From assembly GCF_004011835.1 (NCBI RefSeq), contig NZ_RKLN01000002.1:601469-665468 (forward strand): a stretch of 64,000 nucleotides of DNA, read 5' to 3'. Shown one piece after another: positions 24,952-36,097 of this stretch (positions within the stretch are counted from its first letter, which is position 1; each line of letters opens with the position of its first letter). Source of the DNA: Rhodococcus spongiicola. Its GTDB lineage: Bacteria > Actinomycetota > Actinomycetes > Mycobacteriales > Mycobacteriaceae. Below the pieces are notes generated by a model, which ran no database searches, was not told the DNA's origin, and worked only from the letters and a program-made list of their open reading frames with translations. A program made the position numbers and the translations under genes.

Positions 24952-24957
24952 TAAAGT
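24952..24957 (+). promoter_or_regulatory. -10 box for leaderless cysteine leader peptide
   Basis: TAAAGT followed by seven bases and then the ATG at 24965. No ribosome binding site precedes the ATG, so transcription probably starts on it. The same seven-base spacing is seen before the second cysteine leader at 34760. Confidence 0.6.
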
Positions 24958-24964
24958 CTGCCCC

Positions 24965-25054
24965 ATGTCTGCCGCCGTCGCTCCCCGGGTCCGCCATGAA
25001 TTGGCGTTGATCGCTGTCGGTGGTCTGACGGTTGCCGACATTCACTGTTGCTGA
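24965..25054 (+). CDS. cysteine-containing leader peptide upstream of sulfate transporter operon
   Basis: 29 codons, MSAAVAPRVRHELAL then IAVGGLTVADIHCC, ending in two consecutive cysteine codons directly before the stop. It seems leaderless, with a -10 box seven bases before the ATG. A large hairpin (25078-25118) follows, and then subI at 25284. This matches the layout of the cysteine-responsive attenuators reported upstream of sulfur genes in mycobacteria. There, slow decoding of Cys codons when charged tRNA-Cys is scarce alters downstream RNA folding and raises expression. The peptide itself probably has no function. Cysteine response is inferred. Confidence 0.75.
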   Translation: MSAAVAPRVRHELALIAVGGLTVADIHCC

Positions 25055-25118: not shown

Positions 25119-25283
25119 GATGTCGACCGCGGACGTGGTGTGGTCCGTCCTCAGAGCGTCATCGCGCCGAGCGCCGCCTCCAGGAACTCTGTGAGAGTTC
25201 CGAACGCCGAGACCCGGTGTTTGCCGGGTTGATTCCGTATGTGGTCTTCTGCACTTGCCGGCTCGCTTGGAAGGTTATCCGCC

Positions 25284-26315
25284 ATGAGGCACCGTTCCCG
25301 CCTGTTACTGACCGCGCTCGCCACGATCGGCGCAGTCGCGCTGACCGCGTGCAGCGGCGGCTCGAGTGACGTCGTGGGCGGCGGCGATATCGGTGGGGAC
25401 GGCAGTAGAGGCACCGTCAGCCTGTTCGCATACGGGGTTCCCAAGCCCGGTTTCGACAAGGTCATGGAGGGGTTTGCCGAGACCGAGGAAGGCGAGGGCA
25501 TCGCCTTCAAGCCCGCCTACGGTGCATCGGGAGATCAGTCCCGCAAGGTCGAGGATGGTGCCCCGGCCGACTTCGTGAGCTTCTCGGTCGAACCCGACAT
25601 CACTCGACTGGTCGACGCAGGTCGCGTCGACGAGCACTGGAACAGTGACGCGTACCACGGGATTCCCTTCGGCTCGGTCGTCGCGTTTGTCGTCCGCGAG
25701 GGCAACCCGAAGAACATTCAGGACTGGGACGATCTCATTCGGCCAGGTATCGAGGTCGTCACCCCGAATCCGTTCAGTTCGGGCTCGGCCAAGTGGAACC
25801 TCCTGGCGCCGTATGCCGCCGAGAGCGGAGGCGGCAGTGATCCGCAGGCCGGGATCGACTACCTCGAGAAGTTGGTCGGCGAGCACGTCAAGGTGCAGCC
25901 CAAGTCCGGCCGGGAGGCGACGGAGGCCTTCCTGCAGGGTCGCGGCGATGTCCTGTTGAGCTACGAGAACGAGGCGCTGTTCATCGAACGGAGCGGCGAC
26001 CCGGTCGAGCACGTGATTCCGCCGACAACGTTCAAGATCGAAAACCCGGCTGCGGTCATCAAGAACAGTCCGAACATTGTTCAGGCGACCGCTTTCCGGG
26101 ACTACCTGTACACGCCCGAGGCGCAGCGACTGTGGGCCGAGGCCGGGTTCCGTCCGGTCGATCCGGGGGTTGCGAAGGAGTTCGTCGACGACTTCCCGCA
26201 GCCGGAGCAGCTGTGGACTGTAGCCGACCTCGGTGGCTGGGAGACCGTCGACGCGGAACTGTTCGATTCGCGGACCGGCACCATCGCCGCCGTCTACGAC
26301 AGCGCGACGAAGTAG
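25284..26315 (+). CDS. subI: sulfate ABC transporter substrate-binding lipoprotein
   Basis: 343 residues. A lipoprotein signal (basic start, hydrophobic stretch, lipobox LTAC with Cys at about residue 22) anchors it outside the membrane. The mature part is a type-2 periplasmic-binding fold of the sulfate/thiosulfate family: GASGDQSRKVEDGAPADFVSFS, the GSVVAFVVREGNPKNI strand and VVTPNPFSSGSAKWNLL are typical sulfate-binding segments. The ATG at 25284 begins exactly at the signal. First structural gene after the cysteine leader; cysT starts in its stop codon. Captures sulfate (possibly thiosulfate) for CysTWA. Confidence 0.95.
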   Translation: MRHRSRLLLTALATIGAVALTACSGGSSDVVGGGDIGGDGSRGTVSLFAYGVPKPGFDKVMEGFAETEEGEGIAFKPAYGASGDQSRKVEDGAPADFVSFSVEPDITRLVDAGRVDEHWNSDAYHGIPFGSVVAFVVREGNPKNIQDWDDLIRPGIEVVTPNPFSSGSAKWNLLAPYAAESGGGSDPQAGIDYLEKLVGEHVKVQPKSGREATEAFLQGRGDVLLSYENEALFIERSGDPVEHVIPPTTFKIENPAAVIKNSPNIVQATAFRDYLYTPEAQRLWAEAGFRPVDPGVAKEFVDDFPQPEQLWTVADLGGWETVDAELFDSRTGTIAAVYDSATK

Positions 26316-28913: not shown

Positions 28914-28939
28914 AGCGATCGGCCCTCAGGCCGATCGCT
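28914..28939. terminator. shared hairpin between convergent cysA and chelatase genes
   Basis: AGCGATCGGCC and GGCCGATCGCT form an 11-bp perfect stem with a four-base loop. The stop codon of the minus-strand chelatase gene overlaps the loop (28926-28928). It can stop transcription from both arms of the sulfur cluster. Confidence 0.75.
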
Positions 28940-29762
28940 TGGCCTGTGGCAGGAAGGCCTGGGCCATACCGGACGCGTAGCGGTCGAGGGCGACCTCGGC
29001 GACGCTGGGGTGCGCGCCGATGGTGTCAGCGAATACGGCATCGGGGGCGACTTCCAGCGCGGCTCGGCCGAGGCGGTCGGTCAGGCGGCCGGGCGCCAGG
29101 AACCACGGGGCGATCACGATCCGCCTGGCGCCCCGCGAACGCAGCCGGGTGATCGCCTGCGCGACTGTGGGCTCCGAGGACGTCACGAAGCAGGTCTCGA
29201 CACCCGCCCACCCCGTCCCCTCGCCGAGGACGTCGGCGAGCGCGCGGGTGCGGTCGTTCGCCGCCGGATCGGACGAGCCGACCGCAGCGAGTACTACCCC
29301 GATCTCGGAGTCATCCGTCGCGACACCCGCCGCGACGATTCGCTCCCGCACCGCAGCGACCAGGCGGGGGTCGTGACCCAGTACGTCCGACCGGATCACG
29401 GTCAACTGCGGATGGCGGGCGCGGGCTGTCGCCAGGAGGCCCGGCAGGTCGACCCGTGCGTGGTAGGCACTGCCGAGCAGGAGCGGAACAACGATGGCCG
29501 TCGAATGGCCCTCTGCGGCGACGGCGTCGAGCACCTGGTCGACCGACGGCGCGGTGAGGTCCAGAAAACACGCTCGGACGTCGAGCTCCGGGTGCCGGCT
29601 GCGGATCGCTGCCACGGCGGCCGTGACCACCCGCGCGGAGCGGGGGTCACGGCTGCCGTGAGCGACGGCGACGAGTGGAACCGTCGCGGCAGCGACCTGG
29701 GGGTGCCCCGTCGCGGCAGCGACCTGCGGGTGCCCCCTCGCGGCAGCGACCTGCGGGTGCAC
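28926..29762 (-). CDS. sirohydrochlorin chelatase (CbiX/SirB-like)
   Basis: 278 residues. The chelatase fold begins at VPLVAVAHGSRDPRS, with the metal-binding His in AHGSRD. The second domain repeats the pattern and has IAPWFLAPGRLTDRLG. It inserts iron (or cobalt) into sirohydrochlorin; beside sulfite reductase the likely product is siroheme. Residues 1-27 are three near-copies of HPQVAAATG encoded by a 27-bp tandem repeat and not part of the enzyme fold. Start candidates are GTG 29762 (used here, four bases after the cysN stop) or an internal GTG at the beginning of VPLVAVAHG. Equivalent to mycobacterial che1 (Rv2393). Last gene of the sirA-cysH-cysD-cysN operon. Confidence 0.85.
   Translation of the reverse strand: MHPQVAAARGHPQVAAATGHPQVAAATVPLVAVAHGSRDPRSARVVTAAVAAIRSRHPELDVRACFLDLTAPSVDQVLDAVAAEGHSTAIVVPLLLGSAYHARVDLPGLLATARARHPQLTVIRSDVLGHDPRLVAAVRERIVAAGVATDDSEIGVVLAAVGSSDPAANDRTRALADVLGEGTGWAGVETCFVTSSEPTVAQAITRLRSRGARRIVIAPWFLAPGRLTDRLGRAALEVAPDAVFADTIGAHPSVAEVALDRYASGMAQAFLPQAKRSA
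29682..29762. repeat. 27-bp in-frame tandem repeat at the chelatase start
   Basis: Units 29682-29708, 29709-29735 and 29736-29762 share cgtcgcggcagcgacctg and differ at one to three positions each. They encode the first 27 residues of the chelatase, and the GTG start lies in the outermost unit. Same unit length and copy number as the unrelated repeat at 10163-10243. Confidence 0.93.
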
Positions 29763-29766
29763 AGTC

Positions 29767-31095
29767 TCAGACCCGTTCGCCGAGTTCGACCTCGGCGATC
29801 GCGTCGCCGACGAGTCCGGCCGCGAGCGTGTTGCCGCCGGCAGGGTCGATCAGCAGGAAACTGCCGGTGTGCCGGTTGACGGTGTAGTCGTCGGCCACGA
29901 TCGGCTCGGCGACACGCACCGAGATCTTGCCGATCTCGTTGAGCTCGAGCGTCTCCGGGGACGCCTCGGATACCAGTTCTTGCTCGTCCAGGCGTTCGAC
30001 GAGTGCACCGACGATCGCCTGGGTGGTACGCGTGCCGTGCTTGAGCAGCAGGCGCGCGCCCGGGCGCAGCGGCTTCTCGGCGAGCCAGCACACGGTCGCC
30101 TCGAACTGGTCGATCGGCTCGGGAGAGTTCGACGGAGAGGCGATCGTGTCACCGCGGGAGACGTCGACGTCGTCGGCGAGCACCAGCGTGACACTGCGCC
30201 CTGCGTGGGCGACGTCGAGTTCGCCGTCGGCCGTGTCGATCCGGGACACCGTGGTCCGGGTGCCCGACGGCAGGATGACGACCTCGTCGCCGGGCACGAC
30301 CGAACCGGCTGCCACCTGACCGGCGTAGCCACGGTAGTCGGGGAACTCGGCGGTGCGCGGTCGGATCACGTACTGGACCGGGAACCGCAGGCCCACATCG
30401 TGTTTGCCCTCGTTGTCGCCGTCCACCGGCACCGATTCCAGGTGCTCGATCAGCGTCGGGCCGTCGTAGTACGGCGTGTTCTCCGAGTGCACGGCGACGT
30501 TGTCGCCGTGCAGCGCCGAGACCGGGATCTCCACGACGTCCTCGGGCGCCCAGCCCAGGGATGTGGTCAGCTCGTTGAACTCGCTGGAGATCTCGGCGAA
30601 CACCGTCGCCGGATCGTCGACGAGATCGATCTTGTTGACCGCCAGCACCAGTCGCGGCACGCCTAGCAGTGACAGGACCGCGGCGTGCTTGCGGGTCTGC
30701 GCGACGACACCCTTGCGGGCGTCGACGAGCAGGATCACCAACTGGGCGGTCGAGGCACCCGAGACGGTGTTGCGGGTGTACTGCACGTGGCCGGGGGTGT
30801 CGGCGAGGACGAACGACCGGCGCGGGGTTGCGAAGTAGCGGTACGCGACGTCGATCGTGATGCCCTGCTCGCGTTCGGCGCGCAGGCCGTCGACCAGTAG
30901 CGACAGGTCCGGGGTGGACAGGCCCTTGTCGACCGAAGCGCGGGTGACCGCGTCGATCTGGTCGGCCAGGACGGACTTCGTGTCGTACAGCAGCCGGCCC
31001 ACCAGGGTGGACTTGCCGTCGTCGACACTGCCGGCCGTGGCCAGGCGCAGTAGTTTCGTTTCGCTTCGCGGGCTACGCTCGTGAAGGTCGCTCAT
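29767..31095 (-). CDS. cysN: sulfate adenylyltransferase subunit 1 (GTPase)
   Basis: 442 residues, EF-Tu-like GTPase that energises ATP sulfurylase. G1 is GSVDDGKS (22-29), the switch region is EREQGITIDVAYRYF, G3 is DTPGHVQY and G4 is NKIDLV; domains II and III follow. There is no C-terminal APS kinase (CysC) domain, unlike the fused CysNC of M. tuberculosis, which fits the use of APS reductase here. The ATG at 31095 is two bases from the cysD stop. Forms APS together with CysD. Confidence 0.95.
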   Translation of the reverse strand: MSDLHERSPRSETKLLRLATAGSVDDGKSTLVGRLLYDTKSVLADQIDAVTRASVDKGLSTPDLSLLVDGLRAEREQGITIDVAYRYFATPRRSFVLADTPGHVQYTRNTVSGASTAQLVILLVDARKGVVAQTRKHAAVLSLLGVPRLVLAVNKIDLVDDPATVFAEISSEFNELTTSLGWAPEDVVEIPVSALHGDNVAVHSENTPYYDGPTLIEHLESVPVDGDNEGKHDVGLRFPVQYVIRPRTAEFPDYRGYAGQVAAGSVVPGDEVVILPSGTRTTVSRIDTADGELDVAHAGRSVTLVLADDVDVSRGDTIASPSNSPEPIDQFEATVCWLAEKPLRPGARLLLKHGTRTTQAIVGALVERLDEQELVSEASPETLELNEIGKISVRVAEPIVADDYTVNRHTGSFLLIDPAGGNTLAAGLVGDAIAEVELGERV

Positions 31096-31097
31096 GA

Positions 31098-32084
31098 TCA
31101 GAAGTAGCCCTCTCGCTTGCGGTCTTCCATGGCGGCCTCGGACACTCGGTCGTCGCCGCGGGTGGCGCCGCGTTCGGTCAGTCGGGACGCCGCGACCTCG
31201 GCCAGAATGGCGTCGTTGTCGGCGGCGTCGGACAGGATGGCGCCGGTGGTGGAGCCGTCGCCGACGGTGCGGTAGCGCACCGACCGGACCTCGAGTTCTT
31301 CGCCCTCGGCGGGACCACCCCACACGCCCGGCGTCATCCACATGCCGTCGCGCCGGTAGACCTGACGCTGGTGGGCGTAGTAGATGCTCGCGAGTTCGAC
31401 GTCGTCGCGAGCGATGTACCGCCAGATGTCGAGCTCGGTGAAGTTGCTCAGCGGGAACACCCGCACGTGCTCGCCCGGCGCGTGCCGCCCGTTGTACAGG
31501 TTCCACAGCTCGGGGCGCTGCCGTTTGGGATCCCACTGCCCGAAGGCGTTGCGCAGCGAGAAGATCCGCTCCTTGGCTCGCGAACGCTCCTCGTCCCGGC
31601 GGCCGCCGCCGAAGACCGCGTCGAAGCGGTTCTCGGTGATGGCATCGAGAAGCGGAACCGTCTGCAGCGGGTTCCGGATCCCGTCGGGGCGCTCGGTGAG
31701 CCGGCCGTCGGCGAGGTAGTCCTCGACCTTGGCGACGTGCAGACGCAGGTCGTACTTCGCGACGACGTGATCGCGGAACTCGAGAACCTCGGGCAGGTTG
31801 TGGCCGGTATCGACGTGCAGCAGCGCGAACGGCAGCGGCGCAGGCCAGAACGCCTTGATCGCCAGGTGCAGCAGCACCGTCGAGTCCTTGCCACCCGAGA
31901 ACAGGATCACGGGCCGCTCGAACTCGCCGGCCACCTCGCGGAATACGTGGATGGCCTCGGACTCGAGAGCGTCGAGGGTGTCGAACTTGTTGCCGTCGAG
32001 TTGAACTCGCTCGGTGTGGTCGAGCTCAGGTCGCGGCACCGCGGCGTCGAGAGTCGGGACGGTCTCAGTGATGTCGATTGTCAT
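31098..32084 (-). CDS. cysD: sulfate adenylyltransferase subunit 2
   Basis: 328 residues, the catalytic subunit making adenosine 5'-phosphosulfate from ATP and sulfate. The N-type ATP pyrophosphatase loop is FSGGKDSTVLLHLA (Ser63 onward); GGGRRDEERSRAKERIFSLR and FPLSNFTELDIWRYI are the family blocks. It ends in the usual KREGYF. The ATG at 32084 overlaps the cysH stop (ATGA); upstream alternative starts would lie inside cysH. Confidence 0.96.
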   Translation of the reverse strand: MTIDITETVPTLDAAVPRPELDHTERVQLDGNKFDTLDALESEAIHVFREVAGEFERPVILFSGGKDSTVLLHLAIKAFWPAPLPFALLHVDTGHNLPEVLEFRDHVVAKYDLRLHVAKVEDYLADGRLTERPDGIRNPLQTVPLLDAITENRFDAVFGGGRRDEERSRAKERIFSLRNAFGQWDPKRQRPELWNLYNGRHAPGEHVRVFPLSNFTELDIWRYIARDDVELASIYYAHQRQVYRRDGMWMTPGVWGGPAEGEELEVRSVRYRTVGDGSTTGAILSDAADNDAILAEVAASRLTERGATRGDDRVSEAAMEDRKREGYF

Positions 32085-32794
32085 GACGCGTGCAACCCGC
32101 ATTCTGTCTTGGCCGAACCGGCCCACCGACCGCTACGCGGATCGGCGCCGGGGAGTGGTTTGGCGGTGCAGGGAGCGCACCCGATGGACGGATATCCCTC
32201 GTCGACGAGCGGATTGACCAGAATCGAGTGCTCGTCGATGTATGCCTGCATGTCCTCGTCGGACCATGCGGCGATGGGATTGATCTTCACCAGCCCGAAC
32301 GCCTCGTCGAACGAGACGAGGGGGGCGTTCGCCCGGGTGGGGGACTCCACCCGGCGGATGCCGGTGACCCACGCTTGGTAGCCACTGAGCGTCGCCTTCA
32401 GCGGCGCGACCTTGCGCAGCGCGCAGCAGCGGTTGGGATCACGCGCGAACAGGTCCTTGCCCTCGATCGCGTCCTGCTCGGCGACCGTGGTGGCCGGCCT
32501 CGCATTGACGATGTTGACGCCGTACACCTGCTCGACCGCGTCCCGGGTACCGATGGTCTCGGCGAAGTGGTATCCGGTGTCGAGGAACAGCACGTCGACG
32601 CCGGGACGCACCTGTGTCGCGAGGTGGACCAGCACACCGTCCTGCATGTTCGAGGCCACGATGTAGCTCGAGCCGAACGTGTCCTCGGTCCACCGCAGCA
32701 ACTCGAGTGCGGACGCGCCGTCCAGGTCCGCCGCCCCGCGGGCGGCGAGCGCGCGGAGCTCGTCCGCGGTTGCCGTCGTCAGATCCACCGTCAT
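32081..32794 (-). CDS. cysH: adenosine 5'-phosphosulfate reductase (assimilatory)
   Basis: 237 residues. Reduces APS to sulfite with thioredoxin. The iron-sulfur signature is present: a CC pair in RDPNRCCALRKV and CxxC in GCAPCTAKP, which distinguishes APS reductases from PAPS reductases. The catalytic Cys is in the C-terminal ECGLH. Further family motifs are VASNMQDGVL, FLDTGYHFAET and VTGIRR. The ATG start overlaps the sirA stop, and cysD follows with an ATGA overlap. Using APS directly explains the absence of cysC. Confidence 0.96.
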   Translation of the reverse strand: MTVDLTTATADELRALAARGAADLDGASALELLRWTEDTFGSSYIVASNMQDGVLVHLATQVRPGVDVLFLDTGYHFAETIGTRDAVEQVYGVNIVNARPATTVAEQDAIEGKDLFARDPNRCCALRKVAPLKATLSGYQAWVTGIRRVESPTRANAPLVSFDEAFGLVKINPIAAWSDEDMQAYIDEHSILVNPLVDEGYPSIGCAPCTAKPLPGADPRSGRWAGSAKTECGLHAS

Positions 32795-34506
32795 CGCAAA
32801 TCTCCCTCGTCTGCTCGAATCGCCCACTGTGCGAACCGTTCGCCCTCGTGACGGTTCTTGACAAAGTTGCGTACTACACGGTCGATGTAGTCGCCGAGTT
32901 CGGCGCTGGTCACCTTGTGCTGTCGCAGCTTCCGCCCGAAGGCGCTGTCGAGGCCGAGGCTGCCGCCCAGGTGCACCTGGAAGCCTTCGACCTGATTGCC
33001 CTCACCGTCGTCGACCAGCTGACCCTTGAACCCGATGTCTGCGATCTGTGATCGACCGCACGAGTTGGGGCAACCGTTGATGTTGACGGTGATCGGGACG
33101 TCGAGCTGCGCGTTCACGTCCGCGAGTCGCTCCTCGAGTTCCGGGGCGAGCACCTGCGACCGCTTGCGGGTCTCCACGAACGACAGCTTGCAGAACTCGA
33201 TGCCGCTGCACGCCAGCAGGTTTCGCCGCCAATGCGACGGCCGGCCGTGCAGGCCCAGTGGCCGGAGTTCGTCGATGAGCCACTCGACCTTGTCGTCCGG
33301 AACGTCGAGCACTACGAGCTTCTGGTACGGGGTGAAGCGCACGCGGTCGGAGCCGACGGCCTCGACCGCGGCGGCCACCTTGGTCAGGATCGTGCCCGAG
33401 ACCCGACCGGCGATGGGCGAGAACCCGATGGCGTTCAGGCCGTTGCGCAGTCGCTGGACGCCGACGTGGTCGATCGGGCGGGCCGGCTTCTCCGGGGCGG
33501 GGCCGTCGATGAGCTTGCGCTTCAGGTATTCGGTTTCGAGAACCTCGCGGAACTTCTCGATGCCCCAGTCCTTGATCAGGAACTTCAGCCGTGCCTTGGC
33601 GCGCAGGCGGCGATATCCGTAGTCCCGGAAGATGGAGACGACGGCCTCCCACACGTCCGGCACCTCGTCCAGCGGAACCCAGACGCCGACGCGCTGCGCC
33701 AGCATGGGGTTCGTCGAGAGGCCACCGCCGACCCACAGATCCAGTCCCGGTCCGTGCTCGGGGTGGACGACCCCGACGAACGCGACGTCGTTGATCTCGT
33801 GGACCACGTCCTGCTGCCCGGAAATCGCGGTCTTGAACTTGCGGGGAAGGTTCGAGTAGCGCGGATCGCCGATGTACCGGCGGACGATCTCGTCGATCGC
33901 CGGCGTCGGGTCGATGATCTCGTCCAGGGACTCGCCCGCCAGCGGGGAGCCGAGGACGACGCGCGGGCAATCGCCGCACGCCTCGGTGGTCTGGAGGCCG
34001 ACCGACTCGAGGCGGTTCCAGATCTCCGGGACGTCCTCGATGCGGATCCAGTGGTACTGGACGTTCTCGCGATCGGACAGGTCAGCTGTGTCCCGACCGA
34101 ACTCGGTGGAGATGCCCCCGAGGGTGCGCAACTGCTCGACGTTCAGAGCGCCGGCGTCGCACCGCACCCGCATCATGAAGTACTCGGCCTCGAGCAGGTC
34201 GATGTTCTCGTCACCGGTGTAGGTGCCGTCGTAGCCCTCTTCACGCTGTGTGTACAGGCCCCACCAGCGGAACCGGCCCCGTAGGTCGGCCTTGTCGATG
34301 CTGTCGAAACCCTGCTTCGAGTAGATGTTCTCGATGCGAGCGCGGACGTTGAGCGGGTTGTCGTCCTTCTTCGTCTGCTCGTTCGCGTTGAGCGGTTCGC
34401 GGTAGCCGAGCACCCATTGGCCTTCGGATCGGCGCTTTTTCGGACGGGCGGCACGAGCCTTGCCGGGAGGGCTCGTCGTCGAGTTGGCGTCGGTGGTCGA
34501 CGTCAT
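32791..34506 (-). CDS. sirA: ferredoxin-dependent sulfite reductase
   Basis: 571 residues, siroheme and [4Fe-4S] enzyme reducing sulfite to sulfide with six electrons from ferredoxin. The cofactor cysteines are visible as ACSGIEFC and NGCPNSCGRSQ. An earlier GDCPRVVLGSP sits in the repeated half-domain. The close relative in M. tuberculosis (NirA/SirA, Rv2391) is a sulfite, not nitrite, reductase, and the cysH-cysD-cysN context agrees. The ATG at 34506 has AGGAG eight or so bases upstream. First structural gene of the reductive arm, 164 bases after a cysteine-rich leader peptide. Confidence 0.95.
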   Translation of the reverse strand: MTSTTDANSTTSPPGKARAARPKKRRSEGQWVLGYREPLNANEQTKKDDNPLNVRARIENIYSKQGFDSIDKADLRGRFRWWGLYTQREEGYDGTYTGDENIDLLEAEYFMMRVRCDAGALNVEQLRTLGGISTEFGRDTADLSDRENVQYHWIRIEDVPEIWNRLESVGLQTTEACGDCPRVVLGSPLAGESLDEIIDPTPAIDEIVRRYIGDPRYSNLPRKFKTAISGQQDVVHEINDVAFVGVVHPEHGPGLDLWVGGGLSTNPMLAQRVGVWVPLDEVPDVWEAVVSIFRDYGYRRLRAKARLKFLIKDWGIEKFREVLETEYLKRKLIDGPAPEKPARPIDHVGVQRLRNGLNAIGFSPIAGRVSGTILTKVAAAVEAVGSDRVRFTPYQKLVVLDVPDDKVEWLIDELRPLGLHGRPSHWRRNLLACSGIEFCKLSFVETRKRSQVLAPELEERLADVNAQLDVPITVNINGCPNSCGRSQIADIGFKGQLVDDGEGNQVEGFQVHLGGSLGLDSAFGRKLRQHKVTSAELGDYIDRVVRNFVKNRHEGERFAQWAIRADEGDLR

Positions 34507-34630
34507 GAATGCTCCTGAATTGTGTGCAATCTCGCAGTGCACCGGTCGAAGACACGGGAGGAGGGCTGCTTCCTCACGGAGTCAGGCTCGGCCGGCCGGG
34601 ATTGGCGGGCGAAACGGGGGGAGAGGCAGG

Positions 34631-34665
34631 CCAGCGTCGACTGCTCTGGGGCAGGGAATCGCTGG
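34631..34665 (-). promoter_or_regulatory. weak candidate hairpin after the sirA leader
   Basis: CCAGCG (read on the minus strand first) can pair with CGCTGG 23 bases later, with a small CTGC/GCAG hairpin inside. It starts about five bases after the leader stop, in the right place for an attenuator, but the stem is short. The rest of the 34507-34670 gap has GC-rich inverted segments (CGGCCGGCCG near 34590) and no gene. Confidence 0.3.
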
Positions 34666-34670
34666 GCTGC

Positions 34671-34760
34671 TTACGCGCCGCAGGACAGACAACAACAGCT
34701 ACAGACACGCTTGAGGTCGACGTGGCGCCTGACCACCAATCGCACCCCTGCATCTGTCAT
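34671..34760 (-). CDS. cysteine-rich leader peptide upstream of sirA
   Basis: 29 codons, MTDAGVRLVVRRHVDL then KRVCSCCCLSCGA, with five Cys among the last ten residues including three in a row. The -10-like CACAAT lies seven bases before the ATG with no ribosome site, so it appears leaderless, as does the equally long leader at 24965. An in-frame ATG nine bases upstream is possible but would not fit that spacing. It resembles the polycysteine leader peptides described upstream of mycobacterial sulfite-reductase genes, which attenuate expression when cysteine is plentiful. Confidence 0.8.
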   Translation of the reverse strand: MTDAGVRLVVRRHVDLKRVCSCCCLSCGA

Positions 34761-34767
34761 GCGGGCC

Positions 34768-34773
34768 ATTGTG
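34768..34773 (-). promoter_or_regulatory. -10-like box for the sirA leader
   Basis: CACAAT on the minus strand, seven bases before the ATG at 34760. It departs from TANNNT at the first base, so it is a moderate match, but the spacing equals that of the other cysteine leader. Confidence 0.45.
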
Positions 34774-34888
34774 CCATGGGAATCTCGCTGTGCCGACCGC
34801 CGGGAGCATATTTCCCTCGAAACAGCGGGAAATGCCTGATCGCCGAGGCGGCCCTGGCGCGAACGTGGGCGACTGGGACACTGGAGCC

Positions 34889-36097
34889 GTGAGTGGATCC
34901 GCCCTCTCGACCCCCGCGGTCGCCTCGACACCTTTCGAACTCCCCGATTCGGCGCTGGCCGAGGTGGGCACTCGTCCGTTCGGTATCTACGTCCACGTCC
35001 CGTTCTGCGCGACACGGTGCGGCTACTGCGACTTCAACACCTATACGGCCGGTGAGTTGGGTACCTCCGCCTCGCCGCGGTCGTGGCTCGAGGCAGTCGA
35101 GCGCGAGCTGACGCGGGCCGCCGAGATCACCGGCGCCCCCCTGGTCGACACCGTCTTCGTCGGTGGCGGGACACCGTCGCTGCTGGGCGGCGAGGTACTC
35201 GCGCGCGTCCTCGGGGCGGTCAAGGCGACCTTCGGGCTCGCGGGCGGTGCCGAGGTGACGACCGAATCGAATCCCGAGTCGACGTCACCGGAGTTCTTCG
35301 CGGCCCTTCGCGAGGCGGGGTTCACCCGGATCTCGCTCGGTATGCAGTCCGCGGCCGAGCATGTGCTGAAGGTCCTCGACCGCACCCACACCCCGGGCCG
35401 GGCGGTCGCGGCGGCGCGGGAGGCACGGGCCGCTGGATTCGATCACGTCAACCTCGATCTCATCTACGGCACGCCCGGTGAGACGGAGGCCGATCTCGAC
35501 GCGTCCCTCGACGCCGTGCTCGGTGCCGGCGTCGACCACGTTTCCGCGTACGCGCTGATCGTCGAGGACGGGACGGCGCTGGCTCGGAAGGTACGGCGCG
35601 GTGAACTGCCTGCCCCCGACGACGACGTCCTCGCGTCTCGCTACGAGCGGATCGACTCGCGTCTGGCCGATGCCGGGCTGCACTGGTACGAGGTGTCGAA
35701 CTGGGCCTCGAACGACGACGCGCGCTGCCGGCACAACCTCGGCTACTGGGACGGCGGTCACTGGTGGGGGGTCGGGCCCGGCGCACACAGCCACGTCGGC
35801 GGCGTGCGGTGGTGGAACGTGAAGCATCCGGCCCGGTACGCGGATCGGCTGTCCGCTGGGCAGCTGCCCGTCGACGGCAGCGAAGCGCTCACCGAGGAGG
35901 ACATCCACGTCGAGCGAGTCCTGCTGACCGTCCGCCTGCGCAGTGGGCTGCCGCTTTCGGATCTGCGGGATGGCGAGCGCGCCGCCGCCGAGCGCGTCGT
36001 GGACGACGGTCTCGGGGTGGTCGAGGCGGATCACCTGGTGCTCACCGATCGGGGGCGCCTGCTCGCTGACGCGGTGGTGCGGGACATCCTCGCGTAG
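34889..36097 (+). CDS. hemW: radical SAM protein HemW (coproporphyrinogen III oxidase-like)
   Basis: 402 residues. The radical-SAM cluster motif is CATRCGYC (Cys40, 44, 47), preceded by YVHVPF. GGGTPSLL, TTESNPES and the SLGMQS segment are typical of HemN/HemW. It lacks the N-terminal extension needed for true HemN activity, so heme chaperone HemW is the better name. GTG 34889 is chosen, since the region upstream is non-homologous and lies over the divergent sirA leader promoter. The M. tuberculosis counterpart at the same place is Rv2388c. Confidence 0.92.
   Translation: MSGSALSTPAVASTPFELPDSALAEVGTRPFGIYVHVPFCATRCGYCDFNTYTAGELGTSASPRSWLEAVERELTRAAEITGAPLVDTVFVGGGTPSLLGGEVLARVLGAVKATFGLAGGAEVTTESNPESTSPEFFAALREAGFTRISLGMQSAAEHVLKVLDRTHTPGRAVAAAREARAAGFDHVNLDLIYGTPGETEADLDASLDAVLGAGVDHVSAYALIVEDGTALARKVRRGELPAPDDDVLASRYERIDSRLADAGLHWYEVSNWASNDDARCRHNLGYWDGGHWWGVGPGAHSHVGGVRWWNVKHPARYADRLSAGQLPVDGSEALTEEDIHVERVLLTVRLRSGLPLSDLRDGERAAAERVVDDGLGVVEADHLVLTDRGRLLADAVVRDILA

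Follow-up and report, generated by a model that had tools for sequence, protein, structure and literature searches.

In Rhodococcus spongiicola, a short ORF rich in cysteine codons lies upstream of sirA, and another short cysteine-containing ORF precedes the sulfate-binding gene of a convergent gene cluster. The locus raises the question of whether such an ORF ties sulfur assimilation to the supply of cysteine and, if so, which of its features does the sensing. We analysed a 64,000-nucleotide stretch of R. spongiicola DNA, hereafter the window. We read the ORF at 34760-34671 on the minus strand as the form that the Ms4527A leader takes in Rhodococcus/Prescottella: a short leaderless ORF tying expression of sirA-cysH-cysD-cysN to the availability of cysteine. 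We assign this reading a probability of roughly 0.8. The relevant features are as follows.

34792..34797, minus strand: −35-like GTCGGC, 18 bases before the −10-like box (TCGG at least 90% conserved in a 77-row alignment)
34768..34773, minus strand: −10-like CACAAT, seven bases before the leader ATG at 34760 (sequence and conservation)
34671..34760, minus strand: leader ORF MTDAGVRLVVRRHVDLKRVCSCCCLSCGA*, Ms4527A-type, probably leaderless (translation, profile match, conservation)
34689..34691, minus strand: TGT codon of Cys24, at +9 from Asp15 and almost invariant in the family
32791..34506, minus strand: sirA, sulfite/nitrite reductase family, 571 aa (matches fall short of the curated family cut-offs)
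32081..32827, minus strand: cysH, (phospho)adenylylsulfate reductase (profile match)
31098..32126, minus strand: cysD, sulfate adenylyltransferase small subunit (coordinates of the longest ORF, whose true start may be internal)
29767..31536, minus strand: cysN, sulfate adenylyltransferase large subunit (match starts near residue 157 of the longest ORF)
28926..29762, minus strand: sirohydrochlorin chelatase-like gene (matches below NCBIfam cut-offs)

The leader ORF, its promoter-like boxes and its family

Translation of 34671-34760 (minus strand) bore out the original prediction of a 29-codon leader with five cysteines among its final ten residues (positions 20, 22, 23, 24 and 27) and seven bases between the −10-like box and the ATG. 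The stop codon is separated from the start of sirA by 164 nt, and the two frames have the same orientation. Cysteine codons near the end of a short ORF, as seen here, are one of the features expected of a leaderless cysteine-responsive attenuator. Among the ATG/GTG ORFs of 15–60 codons in the window, only the leader ORF, with its four nested starts, had at least five cysteines in its last ten codons; 30 randomised versions of the window from a first-order Markov model contained none.

To describe conservation, we used a named set of 80 loci kept from 463 relatives, of which Rhodococcus xishaensis is the closest (sirA 99% identical). The leader was present in 76 of these loci; two of the other four end at a contig end, and two Gordonia loci (L051, L054) lack a recognisable leader of the family before sirA. 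The 76 leaders comprise 27 to 37 residues. In these, the stretch LV[AV]RRHVD[LFY][KQ]RVC is almost unchanged and the tail drifts, amino-acid divergence being 0.069 in the conserved stretch versus 0.372 in the tail. Divergence at fourfold sites of the conserved stretch was 0.293, as compared to a mean of 0.345 over 29 overlapping sirA windows, eight of which were at or below 0.293. These divergence values were anchored on YFMM in sirA and cover 75 of the 76 loci, L076 being left out. The window's sirA reads LEAEYFMM here; EAEYFMM was absent from the frame searched in 70 of 76 relatives, and R. xishaensis has LEAKYFMM at this otherwise conserved place. The ORF could in principle be a chance one without function, being short and lying in a region (34300-35000) that holds no consensus promoter. 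However, its retention in 76 of 80 relatives and the empty Markov controls leave this explanation a next to negligible probability.

A consensus sigma-70 scan of 34300-35000 on both strands found no promoter-like site, and the promoter call therefore rests on the conserved CACAAT box. With in-frame starts chosen by a rule favouring CACAAT and a gap of seven, the 76 named leaders had CACAAT with a seven-base gap in 62 cases, CACAAT with a 6-nt gap in eight, CAGAAT with a seven-base gap in five and CACGAT with a seven-base gap in one. In a wider, class-level set, a strict −10 test was passed by 12 of 60 leaders versus 21 of 1746 control start codons, so that leaderlessness, as judged from sequence, is weakly supported outside the order.

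Comparison with NCBIfam profiles placed the leader near described families. Against leader_Ms4527A (NF042936), it scored 41.5 bits (E 7.3e-11), below the cut-off of 45; by contrast, the leaders of four of four relatives tested scored 46.0–50.7 bits. The R. spongiicola ORF is therefore a counterpart by place and similarity and not a scored member. It shares with Ms4527A, which we take to be located before sirA, the peptide match, the cysteine-rich end, the position of a short ORF before a sulfur gene and the promoter box beside the start; it differs in its sub-threshold score and in belonging to another genus. The Ms4527A family reportedly derives from the Mycobacterium smegmatis leaders of Canestrari et al. 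2020 (Mol Microbiol 114:93). Against NF042934, annotated as ‘putative leader peptide’, the leader scored 24.7 bits (23.3 in a genome scan), below the cut-off of 27. It has in common with this family the core ending in a cysteine at +9, but 47 of 86 NF042934 members have one or two cysteines from the Asp on. The leader upstream of the uptake genes, described below, scored 57.9 bits (55.4 in the genome scan) against leader_Ms4533A (NF042937), above the cut-off of 31. It is a member by score, although it lacks the HVDLxR core found in the sirA leader.

Thus, both leaders belong near or in described cysteine-rich leader families and their identity is already known; as NCBIfam holds both the Ms4527A and Ms4533A families, the leader pair is not new. 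The sirA leader extends a described type of regulator to another genus. A review (PMC9031893) describes leaderless M. smegmatis ORFs with contiguous cysteine codons that control downstream genes by attenuation, and PMC9094748 describes regulatory cysteine-rich ORFs conserved in M. tuberculosis. Leaderless cysteine-rich ORFs had been noted earlier (PMC4633059), and candidate leaders without obvious terminators are described upstream of Mycobacterium cys operons in PMC1262725.

The peptide core and the UGU codon at +9

The leaders contain a constant peptide core, [HA][VIM]D[LFY]xRxx[SGT]xxC, in which the cysteine nine residues after the Asp (+9) is encoded by UGU. In the named set, the +9 codon was TGT in 75 of 76 leaders, the exception being CCC in L041. 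We then examined the class using a protein profile, which yielded 90 loci (L114-L203), of which 86 were kept; three had no match and one (L130) a low score. All 85 distinct leader segments had TGT at +9. Because the profile ends in Cys, a cysteine at this position is partly circular in the profile-found set, but its wobble base is not. In the same 85 segments, the Asp codon was GAC in 65 and GAT in 20, and the neighbouring bases varied.

Two further data sets were independent of the protein profile. The first was anchored on sirA and comprised 84 of 92 sirA matches (84 of 91 genomes); G102, G117, G119 and G135 were left out, as were weak matches in G070, G093, G111 and the second match of G145, and four of the loci (L224, L232, L283, L286) had short upstream stretches. 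Sixty of the 84 upstream regions, including that of the window, had the core in a short sense ORF. Cysteine was at +9 in 58 of the 60 leaders, invariably as TGT, and at +10 in the other two. The core was absent upstream of the remaining 24 sirA genes, two of which had fewer than 210 upstream bases available. In seven upstream regions, the core was on the antisense strand; by sequence, these look like leaders of divergent genes. The second data set was a DNA pattern for HVDLxRxxSxxC (AGC Ser), which gave 123 TGT matches in 80 of 197 genomes, counted as matches and not as confirmed leaders. The corresponding TGC pattern gave a single match, also leader-like, in one genome of 197, and the reversed-pattern control gave none in the genomes listed.

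This codon choice departs from that of the surrounding genes. In sirA of the named loci, cysteine codons were TGC in 522 cases and TGT in nine (9/531); in the class, as represented by the longest ORF of 30 loci, they were TGC in 173 and TGT in 40. The other cysteine codons of the leaders comprise both triplets and are richer in UGU than genes are (in the named set, UGU in 16 of 16 at +7 and 21 of 76 at +5; in the class set, 3 of 35 at +2 and 7 of 31 at +7), and only +9 is fixed throughout. As other wobble bases vary freely, the fixed T of the +9 codon argues for selection on this base, with the qualification that the sequences are related and do not count as independent. A single tRNA-Cys decodes UGU by wobble. 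In the literature searched, we found no statement of a UGU rule, which Canestrari et al. 2020 may describe. The preference is the opposite of that in uORFC-8-2, a cysteine attenuator before cysS in Rhodobacterales: according to PMC8632094, this uORF likewise places cysteine codons ahead of a cysteine gene, but it has two tandem cysteines, mostly UGC, and an intrinsic terminator.

The number of cysteines is far less constant than the codon. The 76 named leaders had two (17 leaders), three (38), four (2), five (11), six (4) or seven (4) cysteines, and 31 of 53 unique class-level sirA leaders had a single cysteine from the Asp on. That the leader is the operon's first gene and makes a functional small cysteine-rich protein, such as a metal or redox binder, would suit a conserved peptide with up to seven cysteines. 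This is nevertheless very improbable: the number of cysteines varies, the tail is not conserved, and a fixed wobble base should be irrelevant to the finished protein.

A stronger contender is plain attenuation by a codon run, in which nothing but the number and position of cysteine codons matters and the peptide is conserved incidentally, owing to an RNA hairpin within the ORF:

34718..34742, minus strand: hairpin inside the leader ORF, GUGGU/GCCAC, with outer CGA/UCG (synonymous-site pattern, folding)

Part of the constancy of the conserved leader stretch is attributable to this hairpin. Consistent with the codon-run explanation, synonymous sites in the stem are mostly fixed while those in the loop are free, and the hairpin is on average modestly more stable than synonymous variants (mean z of −0.84 for 53 unique segments, as compared to −0.04 for 40 control windows). 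The UGU-richness of the other leader cysteine codons relative to genes, seen at +7 and +5 of the named set, points the same way, as does the stress on contiguous cysteine codons in PMC9031893. By contrast, most unique class-level sirA leaders do without a second cysteine from the Asp on; the peptide core is common to leaders of other genes whose predicted hairpins differ; and in the class set UGU is fixed as a triplet amid variable neighbours. On this evidence, we regard codon-run attenuation as a serious but doubtful alternative.

To the contrasting proposal we give even odds: that the leader family is a single-codon sensor positioned by the nascent peptide and not a polycysteine counter. The core [HA][VIM]D[LFY]xRxx[SGT] would hold the ribosome, the near-invariant rare UGU would sense, and the extra cysteines of Rhodococcus and Mycobacterium would be later additions. 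In arrest peptides such as TnaC, a short leader has residues at a fixed distance from the stall codon. Leaders of the sirA type are also short, with conserved residues at a fixed distance from the presumed stall codon, the cysteine at +9; they differ from TnaC in that their stalling is putative. If core and UGU act together, cysteine in the class would be under the control of a specific arrest-peptide system, and the sufficiency of the single codon could be tested with one synonymous change. Of these findings, the one most worth testing is that a near-invariant UGU follows a conserved peptide at a set distance throughout the class.

The RNA between the leader and sirA

The untranslated spacer between the leader and sirA contains two further elements.

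34558..34575, minus strand: spacer hairpin GAGGA-AGCAGCCC-UCCUC (stem covariation)
34512..34517, minus strand: sirA Shine-Dalgarno CAGGAG (sequence; at least 90% conserved in the 77-row alignment)

A hairpin with a CAGCCC loop was found ∼42–62 nt before sirA in most loci; CAGYC was absent from the search range in ten of the 77 rows. The arms of this hairpin co-vary: 29 of 42 unique sequences scored at least 5, as compared to a mean of 15.7 and a maximum of 24 in 500 deals in which the arms were re-dealt. RNAalifold output consisted chiefly of the hairpin inside the ORF, and the whole leader RNA was no more stable than its shuffles (z of 0.05). The only curated Rfam elements in a gathering scan of the window were two tRNAs. 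Separately, 34715-34723 of the leader and the first sirA codons at 34495-34503 (both minus strand) have ACGTCGACC in common; because GTCGAC is self-complementary, the leader and the start of sirA could pair.

No intrinsic terminator-like site was detected in 34300-35000, which sets the sirA leader apart from a classical trp-type attenuator with its terminator between leader and gene. The same result would be compatible with Rho-dependent attenuation, in which Rho loads on the untranslated spacer except when a ribosome has stalled; a weak prediction of this kind for mycobacterial cys leaders appears in PMC1262725. However, the conserved spacer hairpin suggests a translational element: in the window, CUCCU on its 3′ side (34563-34559) could pair with the sirA Shine-Dalgarno. 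We therefore consider the Rho mechanism unlikely.

In the preferred, translational model of the sirA leader, transcription would start at or beside the leader ATG and ribosomes would load on the 5′ end of the mRNA. When Cys-tRNA is ample, ribosomes would pass the cysteine codons and the mRNA fold would largely hide the sirA Shine-Dalgarno. When Cys-tRNA is scarce, the cysteine codons would bring a ribosome to a halt, most of all the UGU that follows Asp15 by nine codons, while the conserved peptide occupies the exit tunnel. The ribosome would be positioned by the nascent peptide on one slow codon. The footprint of this halted ribosome would block the inhibitory pairing, and sirA would be translated. 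According to folding of the window RNA, the probability that the Shine-Dalgarno is unpaired is 0.35 in the free RNA, rising to 0.65 when a ribosome occupies the first cysteine codon and to 0.67 when it occupies the stop codon. Across 77 loci, placing a ribosome on the first cysteine codon changed mean accessibility by +0.009, with shifts greater than 0.05 being upward in 26 and downward in 18. As the effect is not consistent over the 77 loci and a ribosome on the stop codon does equally well, the RNA switch is something we infer, as we do the start site, the stalling and the direction of the response.

Paired leaders on the convergent sulfur arms

The second leader of the window precedes the uptake genes.

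24965..25054, plus strand: partner leader MSAAVAPRVRHELALIAVGGLTVADIHCC*, Ms4533A family, before subI (NF042937, 57.9 bits, cut-off 31; genome scan)
25239..26315, plus strand: subI/cysP sulfate-binding protein, first gene of the uptake arm (profile match)

The partner leader has 29 codons with two cysteines, and TAAAGT at 24952-24957 (plus strand) is followed by seven bases to its start. As had been proposed, each leader marks the outer end of one of two convergent arms, subI to cysA on the plus strand and sirA-cysH-cysD-cysN-chelatase on the minus strand; we took the two ORFs between subI and cysA for permeases. The seven-base gap was ruled out as a special link between the two leaders: CACAAT with this gap occurs in 62 of the 76 named leaders, and a spacing that common in the family implies no special tie between the sirA and subI leaders.

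A search of related genomes for paired leaders, suggested by the original prediction, was positive. The subI gene was present in 15 of the 80 named loci, convergent with sirA every time. Both leaders were found in all 11 loci that include DNA upstream of subI, the other four subI genes being truncated by the locus end. The partner leader had two cysteines in 12 of 12 cases (the window and the 11 loci), and the sirA leaders of the 11 paired loci had three to seven.

It had also been proposed that uptake and reduction are tuned by the same signal with different sensitivity, through two versus five cysteine codons. The analysis upholds what looks like a leaderless cysteine leader on the sirA arm with a counterpart before the uptake genes, but it does not support sensitivity set by cysteine number. 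The count in sirA leaders ranges from two to seven in the named set and, from the Asp on, falls to one in many class-level leaders, which speaks against a tuned setting; since it varies among loci, it is no stable difference between the arms.

Related leaders precede other genes. NF042934 was matched above its cut-off in 128 of 197 class genomes, with many matches in some (14 in G247, 11 in G116). We scanned ten genes behind other leaders, hand-picked by longest ORF, a choice that may err. These encode a cysteine synthase, a PAPS reductase, two luciferase-like monooxygenases (NtaA/DmoA type), a flavin reductase, an FMN reductase, three solute-binding proteins and a symporter; several fit sulfur acquisition. 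R. spongiicola itself has a further leader, the third overall, MFANHELMLTRRRAVDLCRLGGCCCPCC (G000 C1:721797-721865; L112, L288). It has TGT at +9 and is Ms5788A-like, scoring 41.1 bits against a cut-off of 45, and the reading frame behind it looks like a sulfurtransferase gene. Finally, some leader cores occur back to back on opposite strands, ∼90–100 bases apart, as if each of two divergent operons had one, to judge by their arrangement; examples are G216:C103:819-981, G129:C172:14727-14898 and G206:C71:5317-5479.
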